A DNA stretch of 64,000 nucleotides, from NCBI GenBank assembly GCA_030062745.1, contig CP099846.1:18943621-19007620 (forward strand), read 5' to 3'. Within the stretch, counting starts at the first letter, position 1, and each line of letters starts with the position of its first letter. A program made the translations under genes and the position numbers. The notes below the pieces were generated by a model. It saw only the letters and a program-made list of their open reading frames with translations, had not been told where the DNA came from and ran no database searches. This DNA comes from Capitulum mitella. Its lineage: Eukaryota; Arthropoda; Thecostraca; Pollicipedomorpha; Pollicipedidae. Shown here piece by piece: positions 11,537-48,774 of the stretch.

Positions 11537-14500
11537 GTAGGCACTTCACCGGCGGCAGGAGCTCTGTCACGAGTCTCGTAGCACGGAAGCTGAATAGGCT
11601 GAAATATGCGCTGAAGAAACAGGCAAACTCAGCTCGTTGGCCTCCGGAGTTAGATTAACTGTACGACAATGGAACCGCCGGAGCTCGAGTAGTTTGAGCC
11701 CTCTGACTAGCCATGGTTACGCCTCTGCACAACCGCATTGCACCGTGTCGCGCTGCAGTCAATCGTAAACCGATGAAAGGGCATTTGGCATCTGTCAGCA
11801 ACTTCAAACAGAGCGTGACTTGCATCTTACTTACGGCATGTTGATTCAGACTCAGGGAGAGGCGTGTCGGCGCGGAATGTCGTGCGGTCTGCGAGACAGC
11901 GCCAGCGTGACGTGTTCTCGCCGGCACCCGCAGGTGGAGGAGGACTGTCAGGACGGCCTGTACCTCTGGCTGCCGTACGCCACCTGCGGCCTGCTGGTGA
12001 TGGTCTCCTTCAGCCAGCGCTCGTTCCCCAGCACGCTGACGTTCTTCACTGGCGCTGGGTAAGCGTTGTCCCCCCCCCCTTTCGAGTCTCACAGCAGACC
12101 TGAGAAAAACCCAACTAATTAGGGTTGGCTCTGCGGTACTATTCATTACCGCAGATTGTCGCTAACGAACTTTATGGACTGGGCGGCTTCTATTGATGCG
12201 CTGCGGGATGTGGTCTGTGGTGTTTTTTTTTCGGGAGGGTGAAAGGTCACCAAGACCACTGCGTCGTGTCGTGGACTAGCGGCAAGTAAAAGGCCCTTCT
12301 GCGCCATCTGGTCGGTTGCCTGAGGCAACATGACACCAACTTCTTGTCCACGAGGGTGGTGGAGTCTGGGTCTGCGAAAACTCGGCGTCTTAGGATAGGA
12401 TAAGCCTAATCTTTCCCAAAATTGAATTTTCCGCAGATTTTGGCCGCGTTTTTATTTTCCGGAATTTGTATGCGCTATCATTTGAGCGCGTGCAGGAACG
12501 TCAGCTTTCACCCCCCCCCCCCCATGGCTCCCTTGGTCTTCCTTGGCTACGCTCATGCGCTGATCCCAAAGCAGGGTCAGAAACCCGCTGTTCGTCAAGT
12601 CCGCCCGGGCCTATCGTTCTGGCCTGGCATCAATCGTGTGGCCGAGACCGTATACCGGGGCCGACTTCGGGGCCGGCGCGGGTGGGTTGTGGCCTCCCCC
12701 GCGCGCCGGCCGCCGACTGGACAGCGCGCCCCTCTCTCCGTCCGCCGCTGCAGCCCTCGAGCGGCGGCCGCCGGCCGGTGACAGTGGTGACGTCGCTTTG
12801 TCACCGGTGGTGAGGGGCCGGCTGACGGCGGCCGCGCTGACAGGCCGGCGGACAGGCTCCGGTCGCCCCCTCCCGTTCGCCTGTCAGACGGAGCCGGTCC
12901 GCTCCCCTCTCCCCGTCCGTCCATCGTCCGTCCCCCCTCCCGTCCCCCCGCTGTCCGGTGTCCACCCACCAGCCTCGACCGGACTCGCGCGGACACCGCC
13001 GGCCGCCGGTCTGCTCAGTGGAAGACGTCTACCTCTGGTGGAGCTCTGGAGTTTCCGCTCGAAAATGTGTGGAAGCGTCTATCTGCTTGTACTTGGTTAT
13101 CAGCAGGTTAAAGGGAATAGTTCACCTTGGTGAATCCAACAAGCAGCATGAAATGGTTAAACACAGTACGCAGATACCGACCCCATTTTATTTCCGTCAT
13201 GAAACCCTGGAATTGTAAAAGTTTTCATGAATAATGTATCCAACACCATGACATCATTTTGAGGAGCGACGACCGACACGCAGTGATGTAACGTCATGCC
13301 TCCAGTAGTTACAGTGAACCACATACAGGCAGCCGATGTGTTTCAATGACAATTCATGCAACATCACACTGACATCTGCATCTGCACTGACATCTGGGTC
13401 ATTCCATGTCAGATTGCACAAGAATCCACCGGACCCCTTTTGATATTGATGAAATTTGGTACGCTCACAGTACCTATCGAAATAAAGCCAGTCAGGTATT
13501 TTTGGCTCTTGGTGACCTCTGAGATCAAAATTAAAGGTCATGAAAAGTCACCGATTTTCACAGACATTGCACGATTCAAGAACCCATAACTCGTTGCAGA
13601 TTTCGACAAAATGGTGCAATAAGCGCCATTCAAAAGAGAACTCTTCCAGCTTTCATGAATAGGTTCATTACATAAACATTCTCAGTTTTAACAATATTTG
13701 CCTACCGTGATCTTCGCAAAAATGTACTGCAGTATGTCCCGAAGTATGTATAGTAAGTGTGGCAAAAAACATTTTTGGGGAAATCAAAACGTTCTCTGAT
13801 GTCTTGAATTTAGCGTTGCTAAGTGGGTGCTTGAGAAACATACTCTGAGACTATTTGACGAAAATTGATTTCGTGCCTTTCGTTTCTTCGATTATTCTGC
13901 GATTTCGTGTGCCGTGTCCTGCGTGCCTGCGATACATCAGCTGAGGTTTAAATTGCTTGACCAGAGAGGACAAAGTTCATGACATCCTACTATCAGTTGA
14001 CCCTTGCCATCCAGATCTGACATACCTGTGCTTCTTATTTCCACGGAACTGAGTCTGTCGGGTGTTCTTAGTCCTTTAACCCTATTCCCGGAGGGCTAGA
14101 CGGTAAAGTCGATTCCCGGCAGGGGGACGGATTGGGCCGCCCCCCGAGATCTCGAGAACTACTTGTCCGATTTCATTGCAACAAACGGCAATCGATTTGC
14201 CGTGACGTGAACTACATTTTTATAAAAAGAAATTTTCAAAATTTTGAAATTTGTGGATACAGGGGGGCAAAAATGTCAAAATGGGGGGAACATTTCGACT
14301 TCTTATAACTCCGTTGTTTACCGACCGATTTCGATGAAAACTGGCATGAATCGAGAGATTATGGATAGGGCTTTTACCATGGGTCCGCAAATCTCAAATT
14401 TTGAGAAAATTCATGGGCGTTCACAGGGTTTCAAAAATAGGAGGATTAGCTTTCTAACAAATGAACGAACAAAAGAGGCAAACACCTTTTTTTGGCTTCT

Positions 14501-15751
14501 GCTAGCCATGTTAAACTAAAGAAGTACAAATCGCATTACAGTGTTCGTATTTTGTTAGCATAGGCGGTGCCAAGGACATGAAAAAGGGGGAACTATCATG
14601 GTCACACGTTTCTCAGATCAACTTGTGACCTTTGGCCTTAAATGACCTCCAGTGACCTTGGGGTCACTTGGAATGATCTCGTGTGCATTTAATATTATCT
14701 GTAAACGTTTTCAATCATTTGAATTCACTCTATTTGAAAAATTCCATTTTATGGCTATTGCGATATAGGGTACGCGCAATGACATTTTAGGTCATAGCTC
14801 CGTGACCCTACCTGATATCAAGCTGAAACTTGGTGCAAAAGTAGAAGGCACCGTTCTACGTCATATATATTCCGGGTTTGGCATTCGAAAAAACAGCGCC
14901 GAAATTATAGCGAAAAAACAAATTTTGACTTTTCACCTTGACCTGACCTTGTAAAGTGACCTTAGGTAAACAAAATTACATCTGCACATTGCCCAACTAT
15001 TTAGCTATATATCCATATAAAGTTTTAAGTTCTATCTTAAAAACTCTGTTTTTGGCAGGCATTTTCCTTTTGCCCTGAACATGGCCAAAAATGGCATGAG
15101 GTGCCTCCCAAAAAACGTTACCTGGCTCCGTCCCTCAGCAAAGTAGAATTTTGAAAAAACGTAGAAAGAATAGCTAGGAAAAGTCACCAAGTTTTGTGAA
15201 GCTGCGTTAAAAAAACCTGGAATTGGCAAGCAAAAAACCCGAGGGGGGGCGGATTCAGCCCCCCTGCCGGTAATAGGGTTAAGCGAACTGAGACAATCTT
15301 TGTCGAGCCTCGGGGTCTTTTGGAAGTTAACCGAGGCCATTGAGCTCGACTGACGTTGGATAATCTGGTGGTCTGGGGCCATTCATTCTTTTTTTAGGGC
15401 GCTGATTCCGAATTTCGCATATCACATCACTCATCTATCGTATCATATTATCATACCCATATTATTAACATATCATTCAATGTCATATCATTCATATCTC
15501 ACGTATCTGAGTTGACGCCAATCGAAGATTCCATGTCAGTTAGACGGCGATGGCTTTTTGTCATGACGTACTCCCTTGAATCAGAGGTGTCGATTTCTGT
15601 AAATGATTGGGGTCGAGCCGAGGGCCCGACAGCCTAACCTCCCCCAAAATGTGGGTTTCTAAACGGATTTCGCCCACTTTATTTTGACAAACGGAAATTT
15701 ATAAGTTTTTTTAGTTTTAGATTATCATGAGAAATTTCTATTTACTCTCAC

Positions 15752-15792
<41 letters not shown>

Positions 15793-18700
15793 CATATGCA
15801 TATACATACAAAACTTGGGAAGATATACACATCGTTCTAGACTTTATTCTTTACTTTCTGTCTATATCTTATCTATTGCGCCCCTTTTTTCATTATTGTT
15901 ACTCATTCCCTTTAAAACCGGTAGAAAATTTTGGAGGGGGAGCAAAAAAATATTGGGTGGGGCCAACTCAACACTGGGTGGGCCTGGACCCCTTAAAAGA
16001 ATGCAAATCGACACCCCTTGCTTTGAATGTTCGAATAGCTACAAATTAAGTGACAGCTTCGTATAAAAGATGATAAAAGTGGTGATTGAGATAGTGATCA
16101 AAGGTCGAAAAATCAGCTTTAATCCTGGACACGGAATACACGTAAATAAGTTGATGCGTGTAAAATGGACGTGAAATTCGAAATCGGCGCCCAAAAATTA
16201 ATAAATGCTCTGAGATCAAAATAGGCAATCCAAAGTCAACAGATGCTATTGACCTCGGTAGGTCCAAAGATCCCGATGCTCGACTAGGATTATGTCAGCT
16301 GGCTTTAGGCCTAAAAACACCAGATAACTTCAGTTTCGTGAAAATATGAAGAACGGATGTCAGATTTGGATGGTAGGGTTCGTGGTGGGGTGTCATGACC
16401 TTCTCTTTTCTGGTCAAGCAATTTAAAACTAAGCTGATGTGTGTTAGGCACGCAGGGCAATGTGCACACCAAATTCTAGAACGATGAGACAAAAAAAAGG
16501 GCGCAATCAGTTAATATTCATTAAATAGCCTGAGGGTATATCTCTCAAGCGCTGCTTGGCAGCACTTAAATCGTGGTACCTGAAAAGTTTCAGTTTGCTC
16601 AGAAACGTTTTTTGCCACACTTACTGCAGATATTTTGGGACATATTTTGATTCGCTGTTGCGAAGATCGCAGTGGTCAAACATGGTCAAAACCAAAAATG
16701 TTCCATGTGACCTAGTCTTGTGAATGGTTTTCCCGAGTTCACCGGAAAAATGAACCCATTTGTGAAAGCCGGAGCATTTTTCTTTCGGAATGGCGCTAAT
16801 GGCACCATTCTGTGACCATCTGTCACCGGGTTATGGGCATTTGAATCTTGAAACGCCTGGAGAAATCGGTGGCCTTTCATGACCTGTAACTGTGATCTCA
16901 GAGGCCACCTAGGGTCAAAGATTAATTACTGACCATTTTTCAATAGGCACTATGAGCGTGCCAAACGTTATCCAAATCGAAAGAGTTCGGGTTAATTCTT
17001 GTGCGATTTGGCGATTTGGAATGATCCATCCGCATCTTCACAATGACAAATGCCCACGAAAAACGGTCCCCGTGGCAACAGATTTACAACATTTCAGCCG
17101 CCTGACTCAGAACTCAGCCGCCATTATTCCCACGAGTGGCAACCGTTGGCAAACCGCAACAAACTGTTTGTTTTCTGGCTTTTTTTCGACGCATTTGCCA
17201 GGTTTGACCATTAGCGTCCCAGTTGGAAGCAGATTAGTCTCGTTTGGCTGTTTGGCAGGGTCTGTCATTGCATTACGTTCCGTGTTTGCCTGTTACCTAG
17301 AAGTTCATAGCTGGACAAGAGATAATCAAGGGCGCGAGAAGCGGGGGGGGGAGGGAGGCTGTCCCCCAGCTTTTTTCGAATTTCAGATGGACCTTATGGG
17401 AGCTGACTGGAAAGAATTGATCCAAAATGCTTCTTTGTCACCCGTCCCCCAGCATCTGTGGAAGAGCTCCTGCACCCCTGGAGATAATGGTTCTAAACGT
17501 CGTGCCGCATTGGAACCAGTCCCCCTCCCTCGTTAGGGCCCCTCCCTGGCAGCCGTGCCCAACCGCCCGCAGGCGGCAACACTGTCGCACATTTGTTTAT
17601 GCAGCTGCCTCGTACACCGTCAGTCTAGGCGCCTGGTCCCGAACAGCGTCTAAATCTGGCCGTGTTTGGCACCGAAATAGAAGTCCCGGTTTTAAACATC
17701 TAATCATAGAATGTCGTAACAGAATGCGGAGGTAGGTGTGGCGCGTTACTTATGATAGCAGAATATGGGCTGACAGAAGTAAGCGGCGTGGGCACTAGCA
17801 GACGTGACACGAACATGATGGCAAACTTCGGGACAAGTACAGTGAACTCGCCACAAGGAACGTGGTCGTTGGGTCTGGGTTTAATTGCTTAAAACAGGAG
17901 TGTTTCAGACTGATAAAACTAAGCCCGTCAGCATGCAGGTTATGCATGCATATAGCCAGGAGGGGACCAGCCACGATTCAGGACATTCCTTGACTGTGGC
18001 CAGCAAAGTGTGGCGGGTTGTGACGTGGCCGATGACACGTTCACGAAAGACACGACGCGACACGACACAAACACGAAATGTGGCGGCGGCCGGTTTAGTT
18101 GTGGGACGTTGTGATGTCTGCCTGTCACGGTTTGTATGTGCTCCTAGTCGGCGGGAGTGACGGCAGGATTGTCGGTTGGATGTACGCGAAGTCTTTGTTG
18201 TTCGGGAGGGAAATTAAACCTTAACATTCACACTGATGATATTTCTGGGAACCCTGTCCGTTTTTTGTCACCTTCGGACAAACGGCTTTGGCCACATTTG
18301 CCAAATTTCCCAAAAGTTTGGACTGATCGGCTAGAAATTACGAAGATATGTGTCAAATGTCATCTAATTTCGATCAACGGATCAAAAAGTTAGAATGCGG
18401 GTTTCTAGACGCTACCCCCACACCATTACGAAGGTGGTTTTGGTGTCCACCAACACCAGGGTTAAATTGTTCCTGATGGACGCAGCAAATTTTGTGGGGA
18501 AATTTGAAGTTCGGTGTCCTGAAAGGTCGGAGCCCGCTGATCCTTTTTCGTGTGTCTATTTTGGGAGAGTCTTCCTCGCAAAACCCATGCCATGAATGCT
18601 GAGAAGATTACTGTTCTGTTTGTGGCGAAGCCGGCCACCTGTAGCAAGGTATCCACAAAAGGTACGTACCTGCCTGTTTTGCCCGACTGAGAAATAAGAA

Positions 18701-20526
18701 CATGCTGCTGCGCATCGTATTCTCTCATGTGATAACCCCCGTGTACGTGCCTTTCTCAGAAGCGGTGGCGTGTCCCATCACACGTCACTGGCGTTTCGTA
18801 TGTAGCTTCGCGGGGCGTCGCTCATTGCAGAAAACGGCGCCCCGTCGGACGTCAAGTAAACATTCTGCACGTCAATGGGAGCGCCGTGCGGCTCTGGCCG
18901 TAGGTCGCAGGCGTCAGCTGTTCCGGCCGGGGCCGCCTTGGGGACGTCCGCCTGGCAGCGGAGCTGGCCGCTTGTCGGGGGTGGACCGGCCGGCACGCGG
19001 GAGGGGCGATTTCTCTGGGACCAGCCTAAAGTGTGGGACCGTCCGGGGCTCGTGGACCGGCCCGGGCTCGCGGACCGGCGGATACTCTGGGACAAATCGA
19101 AACTTCGGGGCCGGCTCGGACTCTGAGACCGGCTCGGTAGTCTGGGACCAGTCAGTACTCTGGGACCGGTCATGACTCTGGGGCCAGTCAGTACTCTGGC
19201 ACCGGACAAGACTCTGGGACCGGTCATGACTCTGGAACCGGCCATTACTCTGGGACCGGTCAGTACTCTAGGACCAGGCAGTACCCTGGGACCGGTCAGT
19301 ACTCTGGGACCGGTCATGACTCTGGGGCCGGTCATGACTCTGGGACCGGTCATGACTCTGGGGCCGGCTCGGACTCTGGGACCAGTCAGTACTCTGGGGC
19401 CGGACTAGATACTCTGGGACCGGGCAGGACTCTGGGATCGATCAGGACTCTGGGATCGATCAGGACTCTGGGATGGGCCAGGACTCTGGGACCGACTCGG
19501 ACTCTGGTTCCGGCCAGGAATCTGGAACCGGGCAGGACTGTGGGATCGATCAGGACTCTGGGATGGGCCAGGACTCTGGGACCGGTCAGGACTCTGGGAC
19601 CGACCACAACTGACAGACTGGGCGGAGGGAAGTGCCAACGTCTTCCTCGCTGTATATACACTTCGAAATATGTTTACGCTCGCTGAGTTTGCGATCAGTC
19701 CGTCCAGTTCGCCGACTGCCTAATCCACCCTGACGGCAGAGTCGGCCGCACGTCACTCGCCCTGACGTCACTGTATGTGTGACGTCAGGCGCGCGCGATC
19801 TACGCCGCTCGAGCCACCCGGCGGCACACGCAGCCTTGAGACGCTGTCACGTGGTCCGTCGCGGCACGCCGTCTAATGACCGGACGCCGTCGTTGCAGCA
19901 TCATCGGATCGTACACCACCTTCGTGCTGGTCATCGGCCGACTGTGCCGCACGCCGTTCGTCGACATCTCCTTCCACATCATGTTCGACGAGCTGCCCTA
20001 CGTGGACCGGATACTGCAGGTCAGAGCGCCAGCACGTGCGCGTGCCAGACGTCTGCAGTCTGCCGGCACCGTGGTCAGGTTAATCCGGCCGGCTTCGCTT
20101 GGTGCAGGATTTGTGCACCGTTTTTGTAAGGAGAGGCCTCACCCTCGCAGTCGTTCCGTTTAAGGCGTGGACATGATGTGCAAGGCTGTCTGTCGTGGCC
20201 TGGAAACAGCTTTGGCCACGACTGGGTGGATAACCTAGTGCTTTCTTCACTGCGCTGCGGCGGGGCGCGCGAACCATAGTTCAACGTTGCCATGCCCTTT
20301 GGAACATACACAAGCCATGAAGTGGGTATCTGCGTCACTTGTGATATCGATAATCTCCAAGAAGGATATCCCCTGCGTTTAGATCTGCGAGGACATCTAC
20401 CTCGTGCGGGAAAGAGGTAACCTGGCCTTGGAAGAGGAGCTGTTCGCCAAGCTGATCTTCCTGTACCGGTCCCCGGAGATGATGATCAAGTACACGGAGC
20501 CGCCGCGGGAGGACAACAGTCAGTGA
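11417..20526 (+). CDS. Piezo: Piezo-type mechanosensitive ion channel, C-terminal exons (partial gene)
   Basis: Four exons join in frame to give the last 169 residues of a Piezo channel, the homotrimeric plasma-membrane cation channel opened by membrane tension. In order they encode the end of the extracellular cap domain (to VEWWE), the loop to the last transmembrane helix (VEEDC), the pore-lining inner helix ([13 protein letters not shown]), and the intracellular C-terminal domain ([13 protein letters not shown], then [27 protein letters not shown]). The ending [13 protein letters not shown] followed by an 11-residue tail is the family's usual terminus. Piezos are normally over 2,000 residues, so most of the gene lies upstream, beyond or undetected in this window. 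All junctions keep phase (0, 2, 0) and use GT-AG. A plus-strand AATAAA at 21788 is a possible but distant poly(A) signal. Identity rests on recalled family sequence; I am confident of the family. Confidence 0.93.
11934..12058 (+). CDS. Piezo: Piezo exon B (cap-to-inner-helix linker)
   Basis: It encodes [10 protein letters not shown] through STLTFFTGA and two bases of the next glycine codon. The acceptor is CACCCGCAG before 11934 and the donor GG/GTAAGC at 12059. Acidic residues followed by a cysteine just after EWW, and a Phe-rich start of the inner helix, match the family. The intron before it is 397 bp and the one after it is 7840 bp. Confidence 0.88.
12059..13379 (+). other. Start of the 7.8-kb Piezo intron, CpG-rich island
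   Basis: This is intronic. About 12630-13060 is strongly CpG-rich and gives several overlapping long frames on both strands with Arg/Pro/Gly/Ala composition and no domain. It could be a regulatory CpG island; no promoter motif was found there. Confidence 0.5.
13380..13785 (+). repeat. Inverted-repeat arm, left copy
   Basis: Read forward, it matches the reverse complement of 16590-17010: 'acaagaat', 'ttggtacgctca.agt.cctat', 'cctctgagatca', 'ggtcatgaaa', 'accgattt', 'gcgccattc', 'gatcttcgcaa' and 'agtgtggcaaaaaac' occur in the same order. The two arms are separated by about 2.8 kb. Confidence 0.7.
14080..15278. mobile_element. TTAA-flanked non-autonomous DNA element, family 1, copy 1
   Basis: Intact TTAA copies lie on both sides (14076-14079 and 15279-15282). 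Termini are inverted: left CCCTATTCCCGG, right CCGGTAATAGGG. The 1199-bp body has no transposase. The copy at 28151-29353 matches along its full length. CCCTA-type ends with TTAA duplication are diagnostic of piggyBac-like transposons, so this is a non-autonomous derivative. The interior has six TGACCT words (14626, 14643, 14653, 14939, 14944, 14957); that at 14626 reads TGACCTTT, the complement of the NR4A NBRE. It lies in the Piezo intron. Confidence 0.85.
15283..16589. other. Intron sequence with a TA microsatellite
   Basis: (TA)n occupies 15752-15789. The G-rich passage at 15930-16000 resembles the subterminal parts of the TTAA elements but no ends were found. No coding sequence recognised. 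Confidence 0.6.
16590..17010 (-). repeat. Inverted-repeat arm, right copy
   Basis: It is the reverse-complement partner of 13380-13785. Together the arms could be the long inverted ends of one composite element, or two independent insertions in opposite orientation; 1.2 kb of the sequence between them is the family 1 TTAA element. Confidence 0.7.
17011..19014. other. Intron sequence, no gene recognised
   Basis: The open frame at 16952-17536 begins inside the inverted-repeat arm and has no recognisable domain. About 18230-18420 has the style of the other TGACC-containing repeats ('gatttcgatcaacggatcaaaaagtta') but I found no clear partner. About 18830-19010 is CpG-rich. Confidence 0.4.
19015..19610 (+). 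repeat. 18-bp minisatellite, about 29 units in the regular core
   Basis: The unit ACTCTGGGACCGGTCAGT and its variants repeat every 18 bp, regular from about 19085 to 19605 and degraded before that. Later units switch to a GGGATCGATCAGG variant and alternate with GGGATGGGCCAGG, suggesting higher-order amplification. Because 18 is a multiple of three, frames on both strands stay open and translate into six-residue repeats. It lies about 290 bp before Piezo exon C. Confidence 0.93.
19763..19787. promoter_or_regulatory. Pair of consensus CRE sites in the Piezo intron
   Basis: TGACGTCA occurs at 19763-19770 and 19780-19787, 17 bp apart, about 110 bp before exon C. TGACGTCA is the palindromic CREB/ATF site. 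No function is shown; the spacing and exactness make chance less likely. Confidence 0.5.
19899..20019 (+). CDS. Piezo: Piezo exon C (inner pore helix)
   Basis: It completes the split glycine codon, then encodes [18 protein letters not shown] and [21 protein letters not shown]. The acceptor is GTTGCAG before 19899 and the donor CAG/GTCAGA after 20019. The hydrophobic stretch is the pore-lining inner helix; ELPYVDRIL starts the intracellular C-terminal domain and is among the most conserved words of the family. Confidence 0.93.
20383..20526 (+). CDS. Piezo: Piezo last coding exon
   Basis: It encodes [20 protein letters not shown], then [18 protein letters not shown] and the tail EPPREDNSQ, ending at TGA 20524-20526. 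The acceptor is CTGCGTTTAG before 20383. The intron before it is 363 bp. The tail after the conserved MIK(W/Y)T differs from vertebrate Piezos, which end a few residues later. Confidence 0.95.
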
Positions 20527-26304: not shown

Positions 26305-27516
26305 CCTGCCCCCGACTGGGGGCAGTTGACCACCCTTCTGACGTTTTTCTAGGATCGCGAGAGAACGAACAAACACAGAGCTACGAAACTTTGTGAACCT
26401 TTTGCTTGATCATTTTTACACCTTGTGTCAAAGTTTTGACCTCAGGACAAGTCAGATGTCTGACCTAGGTTAGGTCAAACGGACCTATGTCCAAAAAAGT
26501 TTAGCGCCCTGTAACTTTTTCGCAAAACAAGATATCACAATAATACTTTCAGGGATTAGTAATCTTGATACATTATCTGTTATCTGGTATCTCAGATTTT
26601 TCGGGTATTCTCCGGGTCATTGACCTAAGGTCAAGCCATTTTTAACACATGTCGTTTTTTGAGAATTGGCGTAATTCTTCATAACATTTTCAGTGTGGAG
26701 TGAAGCAGACATCTAGTTACCGTCTTTGGACAAAGTATCAGTAACTTCCAGCCATTGACCCGATGTCAGGTCACGAATAACTGTTGTGAGACAAAATGTC
26801 CCACCGTCAAAATCGGCGATGAATTACTCAGAATGGGTAGAAAATGCAAGAACTGGCTTGCACAGACGTAAGTAATACCAAGAACCCCGAAAAAATGTAA
26901 AAAATTGCATATCCTCGATATAACCAGGCTCTCGCGAATAAATCTCCGCCAGTTATGTAGATTGGTAACTAATGAATTTTTCCAAAATTGAAGCATGAGA
27001 AACCATCGCAAAAACCACTAATATCAATAAAATTTACATGGATAGGGTTATATCGCAAAAAAGGAACTCTTAAGCAAGTTTCCGTTAATTTCTTACTGCG
27101 TACGGCTGCGGCGCCCGCCAACAGCCGTCGTGAACATTGCCGTGTCTTGAACTCAACGTTTCGGCGTATATATTGAACAAATCTTAAAAAATAGACGTGT
27201 ATCGGCATCTGCGGGCCTTTACTTGTGCCCTGGTGCCTTTACCTATGCGTTATTAGTCACAGCCCTTGAGATTCAGGCCGTTTGTAGGTCTCATGCAGTC
27301 GGCTATGAGAAAACATATATGGGACGTAAATTGCTTACATATTACCTGAAACTAAAATTGAGACCAGTTTCGAGCTCTGCTCGCCACAAGCTTTCCAACG
27401 GTGTGCTTATTTTTATCGTGCGACCAACCAACCAACGTTCGTGAGTTAGAGGGGGTGGCCAGCCGCCCCCCCCCCCAGTCGGGCGTGATCGTCGCCGACC
27501 GACGGTCGTGCGCGGG
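26305..27516. mobile_element. TTAA-flanked non-autonomous DNA element, family 2, copy 2
   Basis: The left flank is TTAA (26301-26304) and the right flank TTCA (27517-27520, one mismatch). The left end begins CCTGCCCCCGACTGGGGG. It matches copy 1 (8329-9579) throughout. It holds TGACCTAAGGTCA near 26620, an everted half-site pair lost by mutation in copy 1. No transposase frame. Confidence 0.7.
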
Positions 27517-28150: not shown

Positions 28151-29353
28151 CCCTATTCCCGGAGGGCTAGACGGTATGGCCGATTCCCGGCAGGGGGGGC
28201 GGATTCGGCCCCCCTGAGATCTTGAGAACTGCACTTCCAATTTCATCGCAAGAAACGGCAATCGATTGGCCATGACGTGAACTACACTTTGAAAGAAAGA
28301 AGCTTCCAAAATTTTGAAAGGGGTGGATACAGGGGGCCAAAAATACCAAAATGGGGGTACTTTTGGACTTCTTAAAACTTCGTCGTTTATGGACCGATTT
28401 CGATGAAATTGGCATGAATCAAGACATTATAAATGGAATATTTAAAATTGGTGCACATCTTTAGAATTTTGAGAGAATTCATAGTCGTTCACAGAGTTTC
28501 AAATATAGGAGGATTAGTTTTTTGACAAGTAAATGAACAAAAAAGGCAAAAAACACTTTTTTGACTTCTGCTAGTCATGCTAACGAAATACAAATCGTAT
28601 TCCAATGTTTGTATAATGTTAGCATAGGCGGTGCCAGGGACATGAAAAAAGGGAAACTGTCGTAGTCACATGCTCCTCAGATCAACTTGTAACCTTTGAC
28701 CTTAAATGACCTCCAGTGACCTTGGAGTTACTTGGAATGACCTCGTGCGCATTTAATATTATCTGTAAACGTTTTCAATTATTTGAGTTCACTTTATATC
28801 AAAAATTCAGTTTTACGGCTATTGTGATATAGGGTAAGCGCACTGACATTTTAGGTCATAGCTCCCTGACCCTACCTGATATCAAGCTAAAACTTGATAC
28901 AGTAGTAGAGGGCACCCTGGTACGTCACATTATTTCGCGTTTGGTATTTCAGGAAATAATGCGGTAATTATTACTAAAAAAAAACAAATTTTGACTTTTG
29001 ACCTTGACCTGACCTTGTAAAGTGACCTCAGATGAACAAAATTGTATTTGCATATTGCCCAACTATTTAGCTATATATCCATACAAAATTTTAAGTTCTA
29101 TCTCAAAAACGATGTTTTTGACAGTTATTTTTCTTTTACGCTCAACATGGCTAAGAATGCGTGAGTTGCCTCGTAAAAACGTTGCCTGGCTCCGCCCCTG
29201 AGCAAAATGGAATTACGAAATTTTTTCACAGTTTGTAGAAAGAAGAGCTAGGAAAAGGCACCAAGTTTCGTGAAGCTGCACCAAAAACTCTGGAATTATC
29301 AAGCAGAAAACCCGAGGAGGGTGGATTCGCCCCCCCCCCCGCGGGAAATAGGG
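28151..29353. mobile_element. TTAA-flanked non-autonomous DNA element, family 1, copy 2
   Basis: The left flank is TTAA (28147-28150) and the right flank TTAG (29354-29357, one mismatch). Ends are CCCTATTCCCGG and CGGGAAATAGGG, inverted. Length is 1203 bp against 1199 for copy 1. The half-site cluster is partly kept ('TTTGACCTTAAATGACCTCC' near 28696 and a TGACCTGACCT pair near 29005). Small indels and substitutions throughout show the copies diverged after insertion. Confidence 0.85.
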
Positions 29354-29440
29354 TTAGGGGTCGGAAGTCAATAAAAAATAGTCATTTTCACAATAGCGAA
29401 GTTACAGTTTCGATGCGATATGACTCCTGGGTCATTCCAG

Positions 29441-36306: not shown

Positions 36307-36308
36307 AT

Positions 36309-36352: not shown

Positions 36353-36356
<4 letters not shown>

Positions 36357-38126: not shown

Positions 38127-38170
<44 letters not shown>

Positions 38171-38460: not shown

Positions 38461-38461
38461 G

Positions 38462-38515
38462 CCTGGTTTGGGCCCAGCTGGGCCCAAACCAGGGCCCAGC
38501 TGGGCCCAAACCAGG
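38462..38515. repeat. Perfect 32-bp palindrome plus a partial third half
   Basis: 38462-38493 is CCTGGTTTGGGCCCAG followed by its exact reverse complement. 38494-38515 repeats the right portion (GCCCAGCTGGGCCCAAACC then AGG). Such a sequence can form a cruciform. Confidence 0.95.
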
Positions 38516-38635
38516 CTCGTCGTCGTTGTCGTTGTTGGCGTCGGAGTACAAATATTGTTTTTGAATATAACATATTTGGGTCTGTTACGGTGTGTTGCGT
38601 TTTTATGGCACTGCGCATAACAAGGAAAAGACATA

Positions 38636-39470: not shown

Positions 39471-39655
39471 CCTGCGGCTGAAACCGTGGAGGCACAGGCA
39501 GAACGGCACGATCCAGCTGACGTGGCCCGCCGTGGCCGACACGGTAGCGACACAGGCAGAACGGCACGGACCGGTTGCCGAGTTCCGCCGCGGCCGACAT
39601 GGTGGCGACTGGGAGAACGGCATAATCCGGTTGATGTGGCACAGCGACGCAGTGA
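39470..39655 (+). repeat. About 59-bp tandem repeat, three units
   Basis: 'GGCAGAACGGCACG' recurs at about 39498 and 39556 and, as 'GGGAGAACGGCATA', near 39612, with 'cgtggc' and 'gccgacacggt' between. It is GC-rich and open in several frames; repetition explains the frames. Confidence 0.75.
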
Positions 39656-40644: not shown

Positions 40645-40850
40645 TGAACCAGACCTGGGCCCTGAACCAGACCTGGGCGCCGCTTTTGTGACTGCCGTCT
40701 GATCCAGACCTCGCACGCCTCCGTGACTGCCGCCTGATCCAGACCTGGGCGCCGCTCCTGTGACTGCCGCCTGATCCAGACCTGGGCGCCGCTCCTGTGG
40801 TTGCCCGTGCCACCCGATCCAGACCTCTGCATCGCTCCTGTGATGTCGTT
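40645..40850 (+). repeat. 37-bp tandem repeat, about four units
   Basis: 'GATCCAGACCTGGGCGCCGC' followed by 'TCCTGTGACTGCCGCCT' repeats, with the first and last units diverged. It translates on the minus strand into a Ser/Gly/Arg repeat, explained by the array. Confidence 0.8.
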
Positions 40851-40891
40851 CCCTGATACCCCAGTGAGAGTCGCTGAATCTATCCCAGTTC

Positions 40892-41012
40892 GTTGACCGA
40901 TGGCCCGGTGGATCAGTGGCAAGTGGGAGGCTTAGACGAAGCCCTTGCGGGCCGCTAGCGCCTGTGGCTTGGAAGTATATGTTGAACTGTTCGAGTACTC
41001 TGCCTAAGAATT
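40892..41012 (+). other. Possible tRNA-like (polymerase III) sequence
   Basis: GGCCCGGTGGATCAGTGGCA resembles box A (TRGYNNARNNG) and CTGTTCGAGTACTC resembles box B (GGTTCGANTCC), about 70 bases apart. No paired tail or second copy was found. Confidence 0.2.
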
Positions 41013-41822
41013 GCGACCAAGGCCATGGGTAAAGCGTCTCTAAAATCATTGTCATGGCACTGACTTTGAGTGAATTTTTGCGGTGTGCAGTCGACTTGAG
41101 CTAGTGCTCACTATTACATATCTAATGTTAACTGAAAGTGTTTGGAAGGCTGTGGCCCTCAGACACATAAACGAAGCTGCATCTTTGTAAAAGGCGTATA
41201 TTGAAATGGAGGTAATAAAATGTATCCGACTTGTTACTCAGTATTCTTCTTTGGCATTCTCCGAACCCGATGTCTTTCATGAGCTCTTGGGACTGGGTAG
41301 CCGTGACTGGCCAGATGCATCGAACCATTTGATCAATATTGGATGGGCCTTGCGCAAAATGGAGCGGAAATGTTCATTTTTCCCATGTTATTCTATAGCT
41401 TATTCCGGGCCCAACACTGGGTACTCGACACCGGCCTGCGAGCCGGGCTCAACGTGTTCCAACATTGACACCTCTGGTGTCTTTCGCACCCTTTAATCCC
41501 TTTAATGCAAGTTCTCCGCCTCTTGCATAAATCATTAAATCCTGAACATTGACTTCGAAGCCAGTTGAAGCTGACTGTCCCGTTCCGTAACTGACAGGGC
41601 GTGATAGCTAACGAGGGCTATGATTATTCAACTCGCTGAGGAGGACAAGGAGATATAACAAATAAGCCACACGTCATCACTTTAACGTTTCGTGCATTGT
41701 ATAAAAGAGAAACCCTCTGGTATTGGAAACTGAAGTGGTCTTAATCCGGTGCGTTTTTTCTCTGTTTTGGGAGGGGTAAGCTTGAAAATAGCACCACATG
41801 AGAGTTTTCAAAACTCCACCCA

Positions 41823-41990
41823 TGGCTCTCTCAGAATGGCGCTTGGCCAACACGTCCTTGCGAGAGTCCAAACAACAGGCTTACGGTATGGCCACCGAAA
41901 CGCCTCGCCTACCACGCATGAGTATGGACAGTCTGCAGACAGCCGCTGTTCACTGCGCAACAAACTCCGTCACTCCGCTCTCCAAGCTGG
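41823..41990 (+). repeat. Dispersed repeat, partner of 6185-6360
   Basis: It shares 'gcgcttggccaacacgtcc', 'ggtatggccaccgaaacgcc' and following words with the region near 6.2 kb. Confidence 0.6.
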
Positions 41991-42464
41991 GCAGAATTCT
42001 GCGTTTCGGACCCAGTCCGTTAATCCTTACGTCTTCACAAATAACTAGACTAATCAATGTCCAGCTCACAAATAACTGACCAATACAGACAACAGGAGAT
42101 CCGAGACAGTACCAAGGGACGCCACGCGGCGGGGCACGACTTCCAACGACGTCGCGCGCAGGCCCGCCGAAGAATGCCGGCCAGCGTTAATATCCCTCGT
42201 GCCAGCATCCATACCTGCTCGGCTCACGGCCGCGTTGGTCTTTGTTATCTGCAAGAAAATGCTGTCTGGCTGTCCAGTGATTTCGTCTGTTCCATGTCGT
42301 GTCATGCTTAATTATTACAATATATGGTTCCAGCTTTGTCTTCAGGAGCCGCGTTTTCAGCCAAACAGCCTGTGCAAAACATCCTCCTGGGAAATTAATT
42401 GCGGAACTCACTGCAAACAGGTTTTGCTGCCGTGGCCGCAGACTTGTGCTTGACTCTGGTCCGG

Positions 42465-42600
42465 ATTTGATCCGGACTAAGAATCGGTTGTATTTTCAGA
42501 CGAATCGCACTGGATGCGGATTAATTCTGAAAACACAGCCGTGAATCACGTTTGATTTGGATTAAATTTGAAACACAGCCGTGATGAAATGCTGATCCGG
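42465..42600 (+). repeat. Short duplicated unit
   Basis: 'GGATTAA.T..GAAA(A)CACAGCCGTGA' occurs twice, 55-60 bp apart, with related GATCCGGA words on both sides. Confidence 0.6.
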
Positions 42601-42945
42601 ATCCAAGTGTTGTGATACTGATTTTGATCAGCTTCACCATCAATCCGATTTAATGCGACCAAATTATATATGTAAAGCAGGGTGATAAAATGACATGACA
42701 ATATGCTAATGGAGAATGCATCCAACTAGTAATCCGCCAGGCCAAACTACATTTAAGAGGATGGCAAGTGGGCCAGATAAGCAACTCTGTTTCACAGCCC
42801 CATATTTATTATGCCACATTCCTGCCTATTATCTCAGTGAAGTATCAGGGAAGCAGAGCCTACCTACTTGTATGCGGTATTCCATGCATTTTGTGAACTT
42901 AAGTTCCATATTATATAGTAATGAAATAGTAAAGGAACGCGTATA

Positions 42946-42967
42946 TGTGTATATATATGTATATATA

Positions 42968-43013
<46 letters not shown>
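42946..43013. repeat. TA/TGTA microsatellite
   Basis: Long (TA)n with TATG interruptions. A (TTCAG)n run of five to six copies follows at 43264-43292. Confidence 0.95.
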
Positions 43014-43016
<3 letters not shown>

Positions 43017-43292
43017 CAACGAAGAGCTTGCGAACCATGGTTTGATCCTGGGGTTTTGATTGATTGTTTGATCCTGGGGTTTTGATTGATTGTTTGATCG
43101 TTTTACCAATGTCGTATTTAGGACACCCAAAAGTACGAATTATGACTATCAATGTAAGACATCTTAAATATCCACCTTTGCCAGACGCCCAAATGTCATT
43201 TTAAGGACAGCGTATTTTTGCACAGTGTCCTATGCCGAAATGAGCAAGTATCATAAATAAACTGCTTCAGTTCAGTTCAGTTCAGTTCAGTT

Positions 43293-46200
43293 TCTCTGCG
43301 AATCTTTCCACCGCGTGGATTACTGTTTGATTCTAGTCATTACAGTACAGCACATGCGCAATAGTCATATAGATAAAACTAGACAGTCAGACAAATTATT
43401 AAATTGCTTGCTGATTAGTAAACCTGGAAAAAACAATGCAGACGTTGATCGAGATAACGCTATGTGCGTTATATATATATGTTATATATATATGCTAATA
43501 ATAAATATTTTTCCAATCAGTTTTGTATTAAAAATTTGTTTATTCAGTGCTATTTTTTTACGACCGTTTCATTAACAATAGTCTTGTGTAAAAACAGCCG
43601 GACAGAAGTAAGCAAAGTTGCAGACAGTGAATGGTGGACTTTATCCGTAATTAATGACAAAAGGCAAAGGGGAAACGCTATGCAGTTCAATTTTAGAGTC
43701 AGCCTTCGCGTTCCTAATCGACAATGGGATTTAGTGAAGAAAAATGGAAAAAGAAGACAGAAGTGTTTCGGTATGCCCAGGAAAACAAAAAGGTAGGTGA
43801 TTATTAAAAACTGTTTGTGTAGCACGTCGGCCGTTTTTGCGGTATTTCAGGGTGAATATGGGCATAGGCGCACCCAGTATTTTGCCGAGGTCGGGTGGGG
43901 GAATTTTTAATTGTGTAAATTACGATTTCATTCCAGAGCTATCAGAAAGGGGGAAATGCCTTTTTGGACATAAGCTCACGAAAACTGATCTAAGTGACAG
44001 ATCTGACTTGAACGTAAGTCGAGACGTTGGCACAAGGCGTGAAAACGGCCAAGACAAAATACTCTCAGTTTTGTGGAGTTGCGTTTATGCATTCTTTGTG
44101 AACGCATGTTTGAAAAACCACAGGGAGGCTGTCAACACCCCCCCCCCTGCCCCATTCGGGCGCGAAGTTTCCATTTCTCAACCACTAACGTACGGTTAAT
44201 CCTGAATGTCAATTCAAAGCTGACATAGTCCATTGTAGTGATTGCTTTTTCAAGCACTGTTTGGAAAACTTTACGGCGCCGGCGCTGGCCGTGTCCGTGC
44301 CCAGAAATGGAAAGAAGTTAAAAACAAGGCTGTGGAGCTGGGGCTGTTGCCTCAAAGTACACGTTGGCAGATTGTTCAGAAAAATTTGGTGGGCAAGCAA
44401 TTAAGATCAGCCACGGTAAGCAAATGTTAAGCTAAATTATCCAACGATCCAATAAAAAAACAAACAAAAATGACGGTACGTCAGTTACTGCTTCGCGGTG
44501 GCTTAGCCCTACGATTCGGTACAAGGGGCAATTCAAATTTAGGGCCCTTAACCAACTCCATTACGGTGATGATATATTGTAAGTACAGTTTTGGCAAGTC
44601 ATGGTAATGGTATTTACCATGACTTGTGGTAGGTCATGACCATGGTAAGTTAAGCTTACCAGTATGCGCTCATTCCAGAGAAAAGGGACGCCCAGCGAAA
44701 GACGGGTAACGGACACATGCCGGCGCTCGATAAATTAGATACAACGGCCCTTCTCTCCGGTATCTCCGGTATCCCTGGTAAGCTGCTAAGCTGCCGGCTC
44801 GTTGCAATCCCTACCGACCTGTTAAGGGACCGCTGCCGGCCTATAAGGAGGATCTGCGTCGCCCTGTTGGTGGCCCACTCTGTACAGGCCCTGTTGATGG
44901 CCTGTACAGAAGCCGTATAAAGGCTTCCCTTCTTGGCTCTTGAAAGACTCCCTGTTAGCTCACAGAGGGGCGCCTTGCAGGCCTGCAAAAAATCCGCTTA
45001 CGGGCCTATAGATGGCCCCGCCGACCTGTCCAACGCTAGTGCTAGACGTTAATATCAAGTGCATTCATTATGGATTCCAACGCCGAGGGGCCGTCAGTGG
45101 TCTTGAGGTGGGCGAGGCGGTACACGTTCTGTCTTCATGCCAACGTGCTTGTGTCTTCTGTCTTCATGGCGGTACACGCGCTGTCTTCATGCACGCCACA
45201 TGACGCATTACGTCATGTTAACGAACGATCGCGGTGCTCTGCGAAAACCAGGAACAATCCAAATGCAGAAAAAGCACCCAGGCTCGAGCCTACGTGCTTT
45301 TCAGGTCAGCACGACAGTGCGCTGATATCTGGTGCCTTATCTTCATTGTCAGCATCCGGCATGGAGGACTGGGACGGCAAATTTGGTGGGCTCGTCAGCA
45401 ATGTATGAAATTATTTGGCCACTCCCACCAGAGCTCTTTTCTGAACCGGACATCGGTGCGCCTGAAGCGTCGTCGGCCGGTGTCGCCGCCGGTCCGTCGG
45501 CCATGCGTAATGAGGGGCTACTGGATAGCCGGCGACGGGCAATTCAGGCCCACACCCCCGCCCTCCTGGCGCTCCCAATGTCGGTCCTCACGTCCTAGGA
45601 GCGCCAGGACGAAAGTGAATACCACAAAACTTGTGGTATTGGGAAACATTGCCGCTTGTGTTGATTTGGTCGAATTCAGACAGATCCTGCGGTCTGTCGT
45701 CTGAAGCTGTCTGCTGCAAAGGCTCGGGCAAGGTCATTTTGTTTTGTTGCAAATTTTCGTAGATTTTTGTTGCAGATGCTGTTGTTAGTACTGATATTTG
45801 TGGTTTTAACCTTCACTCACGCGGGGGAGGGGTTCTCTAGGACTCCCCCTCCCCAACTGGGGTGCACTGAGAAAGGAAGTGAAGTCTTTGGAACCCAACA
45901 ACATGTCAAGACCGTCTCTTTGTGTTTTGCGTAACGCTCATTGTGGTATGTTCATGATACTGCATCTGCCTTGCTCAAATAAACTACAAAATAAACCATG
46001 CAAAATCATTTTTGCACACCCAAGCAGGGAAGTTTCCTTCCTCCCATCGTAATAAAGATTTGAAATAAAAAAGATGTCAACGCACGTCACGTCACGTTCC
46101 GACTTTGCTCGAAGTTTTGTTCTGCATGTCATACAAATCCTGGGGCTACTGTGACACTATTCCTCGCGACTTTTAGGAAAACATAGAACCAGAAACGTGC

Positions 46201-46650
46201 AATAATGGTCTTAAACAAAATGAAATGTAGCGGATTTTTTTTCAAATATTTGCACTAATACACTTAGTTCCATGATGCACCTTACCGAACTCATATATTT
46301 CTACAACAATAAATCTACGACAATGGCAAATAAATTACAGTTCCACAGTTCACGAACGAGTCAATCGCGGACATCGTCAATGGTTTCATTCATGTGTTGA
46401 ATAATGGGCGCAAAATAATATTTGCTGTCAGCGTGCCCTAAAATACCAATCAGCAACAATTGATACGGTGGATAGAGTTTATGCAGTGATCGCGATGTGC
46501 AGTAGTGGCTGGACACATCGCAGCGAATGGCGCTCAGTCCCACCCACCGCCATCCGCAGATCAACTCGCACTAGATTCATCGATATTTACATTTACCTAC
46601 AGTCAGAAGCACAGCCAAGGGGGCTAAGAGAACTAAAGCCCCTCTCGTCA
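43293..46650. other. Spacer, no gene recognised
   Basis: A perfect 13-bp hairpin is listed separately at 44595-44626. 45808-45865 starts with TTAACC and holds a GGGGGAGGGG/CCCCCTCCCC hairpin like the ends of the TTAA elements, but no right end was found. No conserved protein recognised. Confidence 0.4.
44595..44626. repeat. Perfect 13-bp inverted repeat
   Basis: CAAGTCATGGTAA, a six-base loop, then TTACCATGACTTG. Nearby words (GGTCATGACCATGG, TAAGTTAAGCTTACC) are also palindromic, so the palindrome-rich stretch extends to about 44660. Confidence 0.9.
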
Positions 46651-46719
46651 GGATTTCTGGGGTCTCAGCGAGCCGCAAGCCTGAAGAGCGCCTGACCACC
46701 AAGACCATGAACCCGTGCT

Positions 46720-47275
46720 CCTGGGGCTCTGGCTTACAGGGGAACAGGCGCCCTGGCAAAGTACTGTAATGATGCCCAGGGGCCTCAAACGCCCTTGGTT
46801 GTATTTATCGTCGCCTTGGCCTTTATTTTTTTTTAAATGTGCGGTAAAAAAAGACCAGGAGTGCAGCCAGAATTTTGCTTACGACATTGCGACGGATGAA
46901 AAGGGGCCATTTATGGGTGAAAAAGGCGCCATTTCCCGGGCAAAAGGTCCATTTTTGAGCAACAAGGGCCCTGGCTCACCGGGGCCCTGAGATGGGGCCC
47001 CTAGGTCTGGCTCACCGGGAAAGCGGGCCCCCCTGCGGCAGTGCTGTAATGTGAAGCAGGGGGTCGAAGGGCCCTGGGCCACATCGCTTTATTTATTTCA
47101 ACGTTCTGAGAAAAAAAATATTGAAAAGGTCAGGTGGATGCTCGGAGCCTTTGGTCATAAAAATAAGGCGAAAAATAGGAATCCGTTTTTTGGTTAAAAG
47201 GACCCCAAAAGAGCTCGTTTCTGGGCAGAAAACTATGAGTTAAAGGAGAAAAGCACACGAAGATTGTCTTTGGGA
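46720..47275 (+). repeat. Two diverged units of about 280 bp
   Basis: 'CTCTGGCTTACAGGGGAACAGGC ... AGTACTGTAATGATG.CCCAGGGG' near 46730 matches 'GTCTGGCTCACCGGGAAAGCGGGC ... AGTGCTGTAATGTGAAGCAGGGGG' near 47005, and both are followed by a T-rich stretch and an AAAAA.GA.CAGG word. (Interrupted here; dots mark differing bases.). Confidence 0.55.
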
Positions 47276-47562
47276 CAACAACGGCCCATTTTCGAACAGA
47301 AAACGACTTAGTTTCCAGGAAAGGACCTCGTTTTTGGCAAGAAGTGGCTGCTACCAGGCAGACCCCTTTTAAAAAACTCGGGCCCTTTTAAAATATAGGG
47401 CTCTACTTCATAATCATAATGGTTCTAATACAAACACAGGACTCCATTTGAAAGCTCAGGGCCCTTTCAAGGCCTGGTGGTCTTTAATGGATCAACGCAG
47501 AGTCCTTGACCTCCGAAAAGTATACTGACAGGAAACGCTTTTGATAGCTCTTGGCGCTTTAA

Positions 47563-48774
47563 CCTTCGCCCAACCTGGCACCCTGACGTGGGCGACCGGA
47601 GAGGGGGGGGACGTTTTGACGCCCCCCTCTATCTCGCGAACGGAACATCGAAGAAAAATGAAACTTATATCAAAGGAAAGCCCACACAGAATGTTTGGAA
47701 AATATTGCAAAATAATGCAACGTTTTCGCATACATATGTAAAAATGGGACTAACTGAAACAGTTTCTCCGTCCCTAATAAAGCTAGAGCAATTCTGAGCA
47801 TGAGAAGCCAATGGAATGCAAATCACCGTGACATATAAATTCGGACATCCATACAACCACATGTCGGCATCAGGTATCCTGACATAATGCCATCTTTAAT
47901 TTTGCTATATTTGTGAGGTTTTTCAACGATGCTGGCGAGTTATTGTTCGTGTTTGCTTCTAAAACGGTAGATATGATTTATACGGGCCTTTTTTAATGCC
48001 GACAGACAAAAACGCTAATAAGTCTAATGTTCAGCCGTTTTCTTGTCTTCATTTCGTGTTATGTCGAGGATCAGTAACAAGGTAAACAAAAGGGCAACAA
48101 GGATCTTTGGATCAAAACTCCGTGGGTGATCTCCTAACTATGATCAATAGGGTGCTATATGAGGTCGGTCATATGACCTGACCTGACGTAGGATTATGAC
48201 CTGATTTGAAGCACGCTTGGGTTTCATCTTTTTATGCCTAGATTTGCCATTGGCTTTTGAAATAAACCAGAAATATTAACCTGGGCAGCTAAATGTCAAC
48301 TTTGCTTCTACCGCGATGACCTCGCTATCGGATAACCTCAGGTGACCTGAGGTCGTTTCAGAGCTTGGAAGTGTTTTGGTGTAATGCTGAATTGCGTAAT
48401 CGACTTATGTGCCTATTTTGCCTCAGAGGTCATTAAAACGGGGTTTAAGTCTCCTGTTTGCTTGTTCACCCAAAATGTTGCCCGACCTGACCTCATGACC
48501 CTTTATGTGGGCCCGCATTATTTGTCGTTTTAAGTGACTTCCTTGCTCCAGAAATGTATTTCAGGCATCAGCAAACCGACATCGGGGGTTGATCTCTTTT
48601 TCGTGACCTTGGCCAGTGACCTAACACAACCAGAAGGTGAAAATTCCACAGGACTTGCGCAAAGGATGCAAAAAAGGGCATGGATATTTTCAGCGCGCTG
48701 CGCGCGCCGTTTTTTGCCATCATTAAAAGTCCTGGAGGCGTCGAAAAGCCCCCCCCCTTCCGTTTGGGCGAGGG
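47563..48774. mobile_element. TTAA-flanked non-autonomous DNA element, family 3
   Basis: TTAA lies on both sides (47559-47562 and 48775-48778). Ends are inverted: left CCTTCGCCCAACCTGG, right with complement CCCTCGCCCAAACGG. Length is 1212 bp, as in families 1 and 2, and a G-homopolymer GGGG(G)GCGT block lies near each end. No transposase. The interior has several TGACCT words (TGACCTGACCTGACG near 48175, AGGTGACCTGAGGTC near 48340, GACCTGACCTCATGACC near 48485). Confidence 0.75.

Follow-up and report, generated by a model that had tools for sequence, protein, structure and literature searches.

The window, meaning the whole stretch of DNA analyzed here, comprises 64,000 nt of Capitulum mitella (GCA_030062745.1, CP099846.1, positions 18,943,621 to 19,007,620, forward strand). 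Five TTAA-type elements lie in it, ending in CC[CT] and bearing blocks of G runs and C runs, as the first-pass annotation had reported; they belong to three families (A, B, and C) and carry repeated TGACCT/AGGTCA words. The features are as follows, with coordinates counted from the first base of the window.

8367..9579, minus strand: element A1, family A, 1213 bp; left flank TTAG, right flank TTAA; words at 8530-8540 and 8817-8848
13395..17028, no strand assigned: foldback repeat D, into which B1 inserted; arms in inverted orientation at 13395-14075 and 16307-17028, 68% alike
14080..15278, plus strand: element B1, family B, 1199 bp; TTAA at 14076-14079 and 15279-15282; sits inside foldback repeat D
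14626..14658, plus strand: B1 word cluster 1, 3 words
14789..14794, minus strand: B1 word cluster 2, 1 word
14939..14962, plus strand: B1 word cluster 3, 3 words
26305..27516, minus strand: element A2, family A, 1212 bp; left flank TTAA, right flank TTCA; clusters at 26437-26477, 26621-26633, and 26768-26773
28151..29353, plus strand: element B2, a diverged family B copy, 1203 bp; left flank TTAA, right flank TTAG; clusters at 28697-28743, 28853-28858, and 28999-29028
47563..48774, plus strand: element C1, family C, 1212 bp; TTAA on both sides; words at 48174-48202, 48317-48348, 48427-48432, 48488-48493, and 48604-48622
53804..54526, minus strand: exon of an NR4A-type nuclear receptor (zinc finger and start of the ligand domain), a neighbor outside the system

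The start of A1 had been placed at 8329, but homology to A2 begins at 8367, which we take as the true start. After this correction, the lengths are 1213, 1199, 1212, 1203, and 1212 bp (A1, B1, A2, B2, and C1), and the earlier range of 1199 to 1251 bp loses its upper end, becoming 1199 to 1213 bp. The flanks had been described as TTAA or near-TTAA; of the five elements, B1 and C1 alone are flanked by TTAA at both ends. What had been called G-homopolymer blocks are present subterminally but are G-run/C-run inverted repeats of mixed hairpin strength (z of −4.0 to −0.8 for five consensus or C1 ends and of +0.4 to −3.0 for ten window ends), and end hairpins were not used as evidence. The arms of foldback repeat D extend past B1, and D has six words of its own. 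An RNA gene in the elements was considered and rejected, as the window gives no Rfam family at the gathering threshold and no tRNA. Two viral-contig scans returned 0 and 1 match, the single match lying inside a phage-like contig gene and taken as chance.

To place the elements in a superfamily, we examined their ends, lengths, and copy numbers. The 477-Mb genome contains 13,225 exact B ends, and the B copies number at least ∼6,600. The elements make up about one tenth of the sampled DNA. Among the matches listed (100 ends), all 37 B end pairs span 1164 to 1238 bp, with none shorter (1209 bp; SD, 10.7 bp); given this fixed length, the B interior seems to be required. Of 30 B copies, 28 are flanked by TTAA on both sides, one by CTAG on both sides, and one is truncated; empty sites with a single TTAA were found for two B insertions (B1 and L017), as expected of the TTAA target-site duplication of piggyBac elements. 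Family A is weaker than B in this respect, with TTAA on both sides in 6/30 copies and matches often stopping short of the element end. Kolobok elements use TTAA too. Both B ends carry CCCTATTCCCGG, and the terminal inverted repeats of C1 and B1 match at 12 to 13 of 16 positions. The CC[C/T] terminal motif is described as a piggyBac hallmark (PMC2872659). The elements are noncoding, homogeneous in length, and high in copy number, as in miniature inverted-repeat transposable elements (MITEs). MITEs are short, usually well under 800 bp; because of their 1.2-kb length, we call the present elements non-autonomous elements rather than typical MITEs.

The window holds 84 words (overlaps counted), of which 36 lie inside the five elements, where about 2.4 are expected; the density is 5.9 per kb inside the elements versus 0.83 outside. 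None of 2,000 dinucleotide shuffles reached the observed count for any of the five elements, so that the repeated words claimed for all of them exceed chance by far. Among all hexamers, AGGTCA ranks first in B1 and B2 pooled, in C1, and in all five pooled, and second in A1 and in A2. The words are also present in the reconstructed consensuses (11 in A, 9 in B, and 23 in C, the C consensus being the majority of seven sequences; 43 altogether) and are ancestral in the elements, so that neither result named by the first-pass annotation as a refutation came about. Exact and one-mismatch words number 11 versus 8 in A, 9 versus 14 in B, and 23 versus 21 in C, a ratio so far over the chance value of about 1:18 that the words are sharp and not the halo of a decayed repeat. 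In A and B, the clusters occupy only part of the element, lying between 61 and 89% of the way along it in A and between 45 and 73% in B. AGGTCA is the half-site of many nuclear receptors, and mobile elements have spread such half-sites in other genomes. In the three consensuses, the commonest short arrangements are overlapping TGACCTGACCT (DR-1; 8 cases) and everted TGACCT(N)AGGTCA with a spacer of 0 to 1 (7 cases), which to our knowledge are not usual receptor dimer sites; canonical dimer spacings are not the main arrangement (DR4, 4; IR1, 2; DR0, 2; DR1, 1).

A feature absent from the first-pass annotation is the regular spacing of the word clusters, about 150 bp in the three TTAA families and in a probable fourth (E). 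The 17 intercluster gaps (A, B, the C majority, and E) average 155 bp (SD, 18), whereas random gaps have an SD of about 75, and 0 of 5,000 random sets were as regular. The regularity survives merge thresholds of 25 to 80 and the omission of any single family. Distances between word pairs peak at 120 to 180 and 260 to 340 and are zero at 80 to 100 and 220 to 260. Genome-wide, the pattern TGACCTN{130,150}TGACCT occurs 62,660 times versus 3,285 for its reversed-pattern control, and TGACCTN{210,230}TGACCT occurs 11,409 times versus 2,980. Two hexamers that overlap the word show the same spacing. Single copies contain exceptions (61, 80, 85, 97, 102, 120, 122, 194, 196, 254, 256, 292, 300, and 327), and C1 is less regular, with gaps of 147, 97, 61, and 122. 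A spacing of about 150 bp approximates the DNA length that a single nucleosome wraps. Among literature titles and abstract openings, we found no spaced AGGTCA arrays in TTAA elements, which is not proof of absence.

We see an even chance that these are non-autonomous piggyBac-type elements whose AGGTCA array, spaced by about one nucleosome length, works for the benefit of the element itself, receptor binding being putative. The interior would then be a cis-acting array, with an AGGTCA half-site cluster every ∼150 bp, and not filler, and selection would act on transposing elements. A host AGGTCA-binding protein, most simply one or more germ line-active nuclear receptors, would bind the clusters, and the bound clusters would phase or loosen the intervening nucleosomes. 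Such an opened array could give a trans-supplied piggyBac transposase access to both ends; the same array might also work as an enhancer. Nothing points to NR4A in particular as the binder. The arrangement suggests a parasite with a built-in regulatory or chromatin-opening array.

A less likely reading, though one to be taken seriously, is inert descent, in which ∼150-bp units of an old satellite-like core persist and the words are unbound leftovers. The E units are alike to some degree (59.7 versus 51.2), and L062 and L067, out of six C relatives, contain a ∼250-bp tandem unit, so the lattice may be partly inherited from tandem duplication. Search matches with repeated 742-1017 blocks and the satellite-like cores described for oyster Helentrons (PMC7492417) point the same way. 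Against this, the A, B, and C units have no common content beyond the words, yet the words are exact, and the exact words match or come close to the one-mismatch words in count. A and C have retained about 5% of the other common hexamers but still keep 11 to 23 words each.

The bodies of the three families had been reported not to align by eye; A (reversed) and C do align over their whole length, so the families are not all unrelated, and B, which may or may not belong with them, has its top scores with A and C in matching orientation. The A1-C1 comparison gives an SW score of 404 (shuffles: mean, 128; maximum, 191), which falls to 301 with the words masked (shuffle maximum, 151) and weakens to 181 when G/C runs are masked as well (shuffle maximum, 156). 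Once A/T runs are also masked, the signal is gone (79; shuffle maximum, 99).

To search for a transposase source, we profiled the genome for PF13843, which gave 118 stretches, and inspected seven transposase loci (3.6 to 3.7 kb). None of the seven has A, B, or C ends; in six, the ends match in style and differ in sequence, and the loci hold only 0 to 4 words each. Six transposase domains (DDE_Tnp_1_7) compared with the window and the A and B consensuses gave no match at an E value of 1. The autonomous piggyBac elements of the genome (L068-L070, L071, L072, and L073) resemble the present elements in their TTAA (TTAG in L071) and similar-style CC[CT] ends (CCCATTAACGCCCAG; CC[CT][AT]TTAGTGCCCA), but they encode transposase, have few words, and by protein search have no interior in common with A or B. 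The seven inspected loci, which did not include a partner of A, B, or C, speak against the words being internal sites at which a putative autonomous partner's transposase or accessory protein binds, a reading we consider improbable. In its favor, the constancy of length implies a role for the interior, and a conserved interior has been suggested to aid transposition in a coral TTAA/piggyBac MITE group (PMC2872659).

Returning to an array that serves the element, we asked how the words decay after insertion. Word retention versus that of other hexamers is 0.691 versus 0.660 in A (P = 0.27), 0.856 versus 0.818 in B (P = 0.23), and 0.47 versus 0.37 in C (P = 0.014 by shifts). All three lean slightly above background, with words lost about as fast as other hexamers, and this near-neutral loss does not clearly point to upkeep by the host. 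Together, the ancestry of the words and their near-neutral loss suggest that they persist through the lineages that transpose and not through host retention of individual copies. Selection inferences here draw only on these consensus-based tests. Pairwise retention between diverged copies (234/552 kept in C versus 88 expected; 8/9 versus 0.47 from B to B2) was rejected as proof of selection because a hexamer in one old copy is often derived, whereas almost all of the words date back to the ancestor. The tree of C is star-like in shape (terminal, 1.33; internal, 0.04); for such a family, neutral decay predicts a pairwise retention of about 0.40, and 0.42 was observed. In C, AGGTCA ranks only 14th of 217 hexamers in retention.

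The first-pass annotation had proposed that the elements distribute receptor sites or use a host receptor themselves, and had remarked on the neighboring NR4A gene. AGGTCA half-sites must have been dispersed by these elements in very great numbers, which bears out part of the first proposal. As the words decay near the background rate after insertion, the element's own use of a putative host receptor fits better. A link to NR4A is not supported: with the elements at about one tenth of the sampled DNA and five in 64 kb, the presence of one at 5.0 kb from the NR4A exon is to be expected, and the NBRE-type AAAGGTCA accounts for only 1 of the 43 consensus words, on which ground NR4A was rejected as the binder. 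It is very unlikely that the elements are kept as suppliers of receptor sites to NR4A or to other host genes, the retention excess that favors this being small and significant only in C.

A bolder form of the element-serving reading, doubtful at present, is that of self-chromatin transposons. Each nucleosome would have its receptor cluster, a hormone-receptor pathway would phase an open germ line array and so license transposition, and several diverged families would have kept words and spacing while the interior otherwise changed.

Several known systems are similar in part. The Acropora CMITEs also comprise several TTAA/piggyBac MITE families with different ends and a conserved interior of unknown origin, and they are alike by description in their homogeneous size and CC[C/T] ends (PMC2872659). 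They differ in being about 100 bp long rather than 1.2 kb and in copy number (∼1600 in A. millepora by the authors' estimate, versus at least ∼6,600 B copies), and the sections covered do not mention a spaced AGGTCA array (PMC2872659). Primate Alu DR2 retinoic acid response elements likewise involve a non-autonomous repeat that spreads AGGTCA-type sites, but Alu is a retroelement in which deamination of an earlier motif produced most of the DR2s, whereas the TTAA elements have many exact words each, already ancestral and regularly spaced (PMC1785376). Oyster non-autonomous Helentrons are noncoding mobile elements with a repeated core but belong to another superfamily, and the A, B, and C units lack similarity outside the words (PMC7492417). 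If functional, the array would explain why non-autonomous elements can need a fixed 1.2-kb interior and would connect a selfish element with a receptor pathway of its host. It would also offer natural, highly replicated AGGTCA arrays (exact B ends alone number 13,225) for testing nucleosome positioning by receptor clusters. Even without host use of the sites, the elements would form an enormous sponge for AGGTCA-binding proteins.

All five TTAA elements described in the first-pass annotation are present in the window, and they fall into three families, A, B, and C:

8367-9579, element A1, family A
14080-15278, element B1, family B
26305-27516, element A2, family A
28151-29353, element B2, family B
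47563-48774, element C1, family C

Only the start of A1 had been misplaced; with it set at 8367, the five lengths are 1213, 1199, 1212, 1203, and 1212 bp. The reported repetition of TGACCT/AGGTCA (here called words) was borne out: 36 of the 84 words in the window (animal DNA; G+C, 50%) lie inside the elements. The 5 to 9 words observed per element (shuffle mean, 0.4 to 0.5) were reached in 0 of 2000 shuffles for every element. The rest of the window is also word-rich (48 versus 25 expected; 0/200 shuffles had as many), with the excess lying in part within other repeats.

The assembly searched totals 477 Mb over 16 contigs; a published account of Capitulum mitella gives 16 chromosomes and an assembly of 512 Mb (PMC11331182), and a passage in a paper on another barnacle species describes barnacles as being without a comprehensive repeat library (PMC8917513). 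The best 40 of 9671 first-look candidates for B were mostly 91 to 92% identical to B1, while identity was ∼85% for the best 40 of 8308 for A and ∼70% for the best 40 of 1032 for C. Thirty B copies measured 1199 to 1219 bp, with TTAA on both sides in 28. Exact matches to the B end, TTAACCCTATTCCCGG, number 13,225 in the genome (reversed control, 0). Among the first 100 ends listed, 26 had no partner and 37 adjacent pairs delimited B elements of 1209 bp (standard deviation [SD], 10.7; range, 1164 to 1238), none of these pairs being shorter than 1164 bp. When fused via a single TTAA, the flanks of B1 and of the copy at another locus, L017, match an uninterrupted relative. These empty sites indicate that B transposed as a unit and that it is younger than repeats D (a foldback repeat around B1) and E (discussed below). 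Matches to A, B, or C made up 17.0 kb (9.8%) of 174 kb of flank DNA from 58 loci, a sample taken beside transposon copies that may exceed the genome average in repeat content. Across flanks and window, word density was 5.2/kb in matching DNA versus 1.03/kb elsewhere, and AGGTCA still ranked fifth in enrichment among 2080 hexamers (168 versus 83) over 156.6 kb of the remaining flank DNA.

No piggyBac transposase domain was matched in the window or in the consensus of A or of B. PF13843 stretches number 118 in the genome, and seven of these transposase loci were inspected: six had TTAA or TTAG plus CC[CT] ends, similar in style to those of A, B, and C and different in sequence, and one had no recognizable ends. 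Given this comparison, the CC[CT] ends, and the TTAA/unit-insertion structure, A, B, and C are non-autonomous piggyBac-type elements, assigned from structure and not from a shared transposase. Loci L068 to L073 are piggyBac elements of ∼2.7 to 2.9 kb with open transposase frames, and their ends define two families.

The bodies of the three families had been described as not aligning by eye; with A reversed, A and C align end to end (full-length score, 404; shuffle maximum, 191). The score was 301 with words masked (maximum, 151), 181 with G/C runs masked as well (maximum, 156), and 79 with A/T runs also masked (maximum, 99), at which point no similarity remained. Common to both are TTAACC, a G-run/C-run pair, a ATCTCGCGAAC-like box, and the words. 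The best orientation of B agreed with the A-C orientation in every comparison. With words masked, B scored above all shuffles against L062, a C relative (205; maximum, 173), and not above them against A (172; maximum, 177) or a second C relative, L067 (150; maximum, 156). On these alignments we regard A and C as relatives and B as a possible third.

The words are ancestral, being present in the reconstructed elements (consensus A, 11; consensus B, 9). The majority of seven C sequences (including six relatives of the 40 scored) carries 23, and individual C copies carry 9 to 20. Exact words compared with one-mismatch words numbered 11 versus 8 in A, 9 versus 14 in B, and 23 versus 21 in C, where chance predicts 1:18. 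Survival of words versus other hexamers in copies was 0.691 versus 0.660 in A, 0.856 versus 0.818 in B, and 0.47 versus 0.37 in C (P = 0.014). Words thus decay about like other hexamers after insertion, which suggests that selection, if any, worked mainly on the transposing lineages.

Within the elements, word clusters (words ≤60 bp apart merged) recur about every 150 bp. Cluster centers lie at 748, 890, and 1058 in A; 562, 712, and 866 in B; 349, 513, 685, 833, 980, 1120, 1259, and 1403 in the C majority; and 239, 433, 575, 704, 900, 1065, and 1207 in a single copy of E (L050_r). The 17 gaps average 155 bp (SD, 18; random SD, ∼75), and 0/5000 trials were as regular. The regularity was kept at merge thresholds of 25 to 80 (13/18 or 14/17 gaps within 130 to 175 bp; random, 0.15 to 0.26) and when any single family was dropped. 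In 20-bp bins, word-pair distances gave 23, 45, and 20 pairs from 120 to 180 bp; 7, 2, 0, and 0 from 180 to 260 bp; and 11, 28, 24, and 20 from 260 to 340 bp. Spacing is less clean in individual copies, with exceptional gaps that run from 61 to 327 bp. Genome-wide, TGACCT pairs with 130 to 150 bp between them number 62,660 (reversed control, 3,285) and those with 210 to 230 bp number 11,409 (control, 2,980); both counts take in tandem satellites and probably come mostly from A and B. Sampled DNA outside A, B, C, and E has a weaker peak at 140 to 200 bp (41 pairs in three bins versus 1 to 8 in other bins). E, which lies in flanks of L050, L016, and L017 (L050_r, L016_l, and L017_l), probably represents a fourth TTAA family; its copies are ∼71% alike and have 7 to 11 words per 1.5-kb flank, and two of the three show TTAACC at one end. 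As E was detected via word clusters, the number of words in it does not count as independent evidence, and spacing played no part in detection.

Such an array could arise by duplication. With words and runs masked, 150-bp stretches centered on E clusters were slightly more alike than shuffles (59.7 versus 51.2), and those of A, B, and C were not above shuffles. In L062 and L067, two of the six C relatives, Tandem Repeats Finder reported a ∼250-bp, word-bearing unit that is not in C1; among the C search matches, block 742-1017 is repeated in many other copies. The likeness of E units and the ∼250-bp unit suggest that duplication probably contributed to building the array. In A, B, and C, the word and its spacing are what is left of it.

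Many nuclear receptors use AGGTCA as their half-site. A receptor exon lies in the window:

53804-54526, minus strand, NR4A-type receptor exon (PF00105, 1.5e-27; best solved relative, NR4A2)

Words are arranged mostly as overlapping TGACCTGACCT or as TGACCT(N)AGGTCA; DR4 and IR1 are less frequent. NR4A-type words account for 1/43 and CAAGGTCA words for 5/43 in the three consensuses, and this survey of 43 words singles out no one receptor; a word-reading protein other than a receptor is possible. We favor a reading in which the interior array would act in cis for the element's own transposition, presumably with protein binding, chromatin phasing, and a transposase partner. Four features jointly favor such a role: the fixed 1.2-kb interior of a non-autonomous element, sharp words that persist where the rest of the sequence between clusters does not, near-nucleosome spacing, and near-neutral loss after insertion. 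Among known systems, the coral CMITEs come nearest: these are TTAA/piggyBac MITE families whose ends differ and whose interior is conserved, and their authors suggest that this interior has a role in transposition (PMC2872659).

Repeat D (window 13395-17028; also L053_r and L044_r) has inverted arms of ∼700 bp, carries 6 words of its own, and has an end resembling GGGTCATTCCA; a D-like end sequence lies downstream of B2, near 29431. By eye, a loose module (CTCG.GAAC or AACTCCGT, then CCGATTTC.ATGAAACTTGG) recurs in otherwise dissimilar repeats:

13440-13480, loose module
14150-14190, loose module
14305-14345, loose module
14795-14835, loose module
47630-47690, loose module

TGACCT also recurs in a ∼31-bp tandem satellite (unit, TGACCTTTGTCGTGTCGCCGGCCCGTGATCG) at G000:C1:683534-684571, without kinship to the TTAA elements. 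The window further contains an 18-bp minisatellite of ∼27 copies at 19118-19602 (consensus, GGACTCTGGGACCGGTCA).
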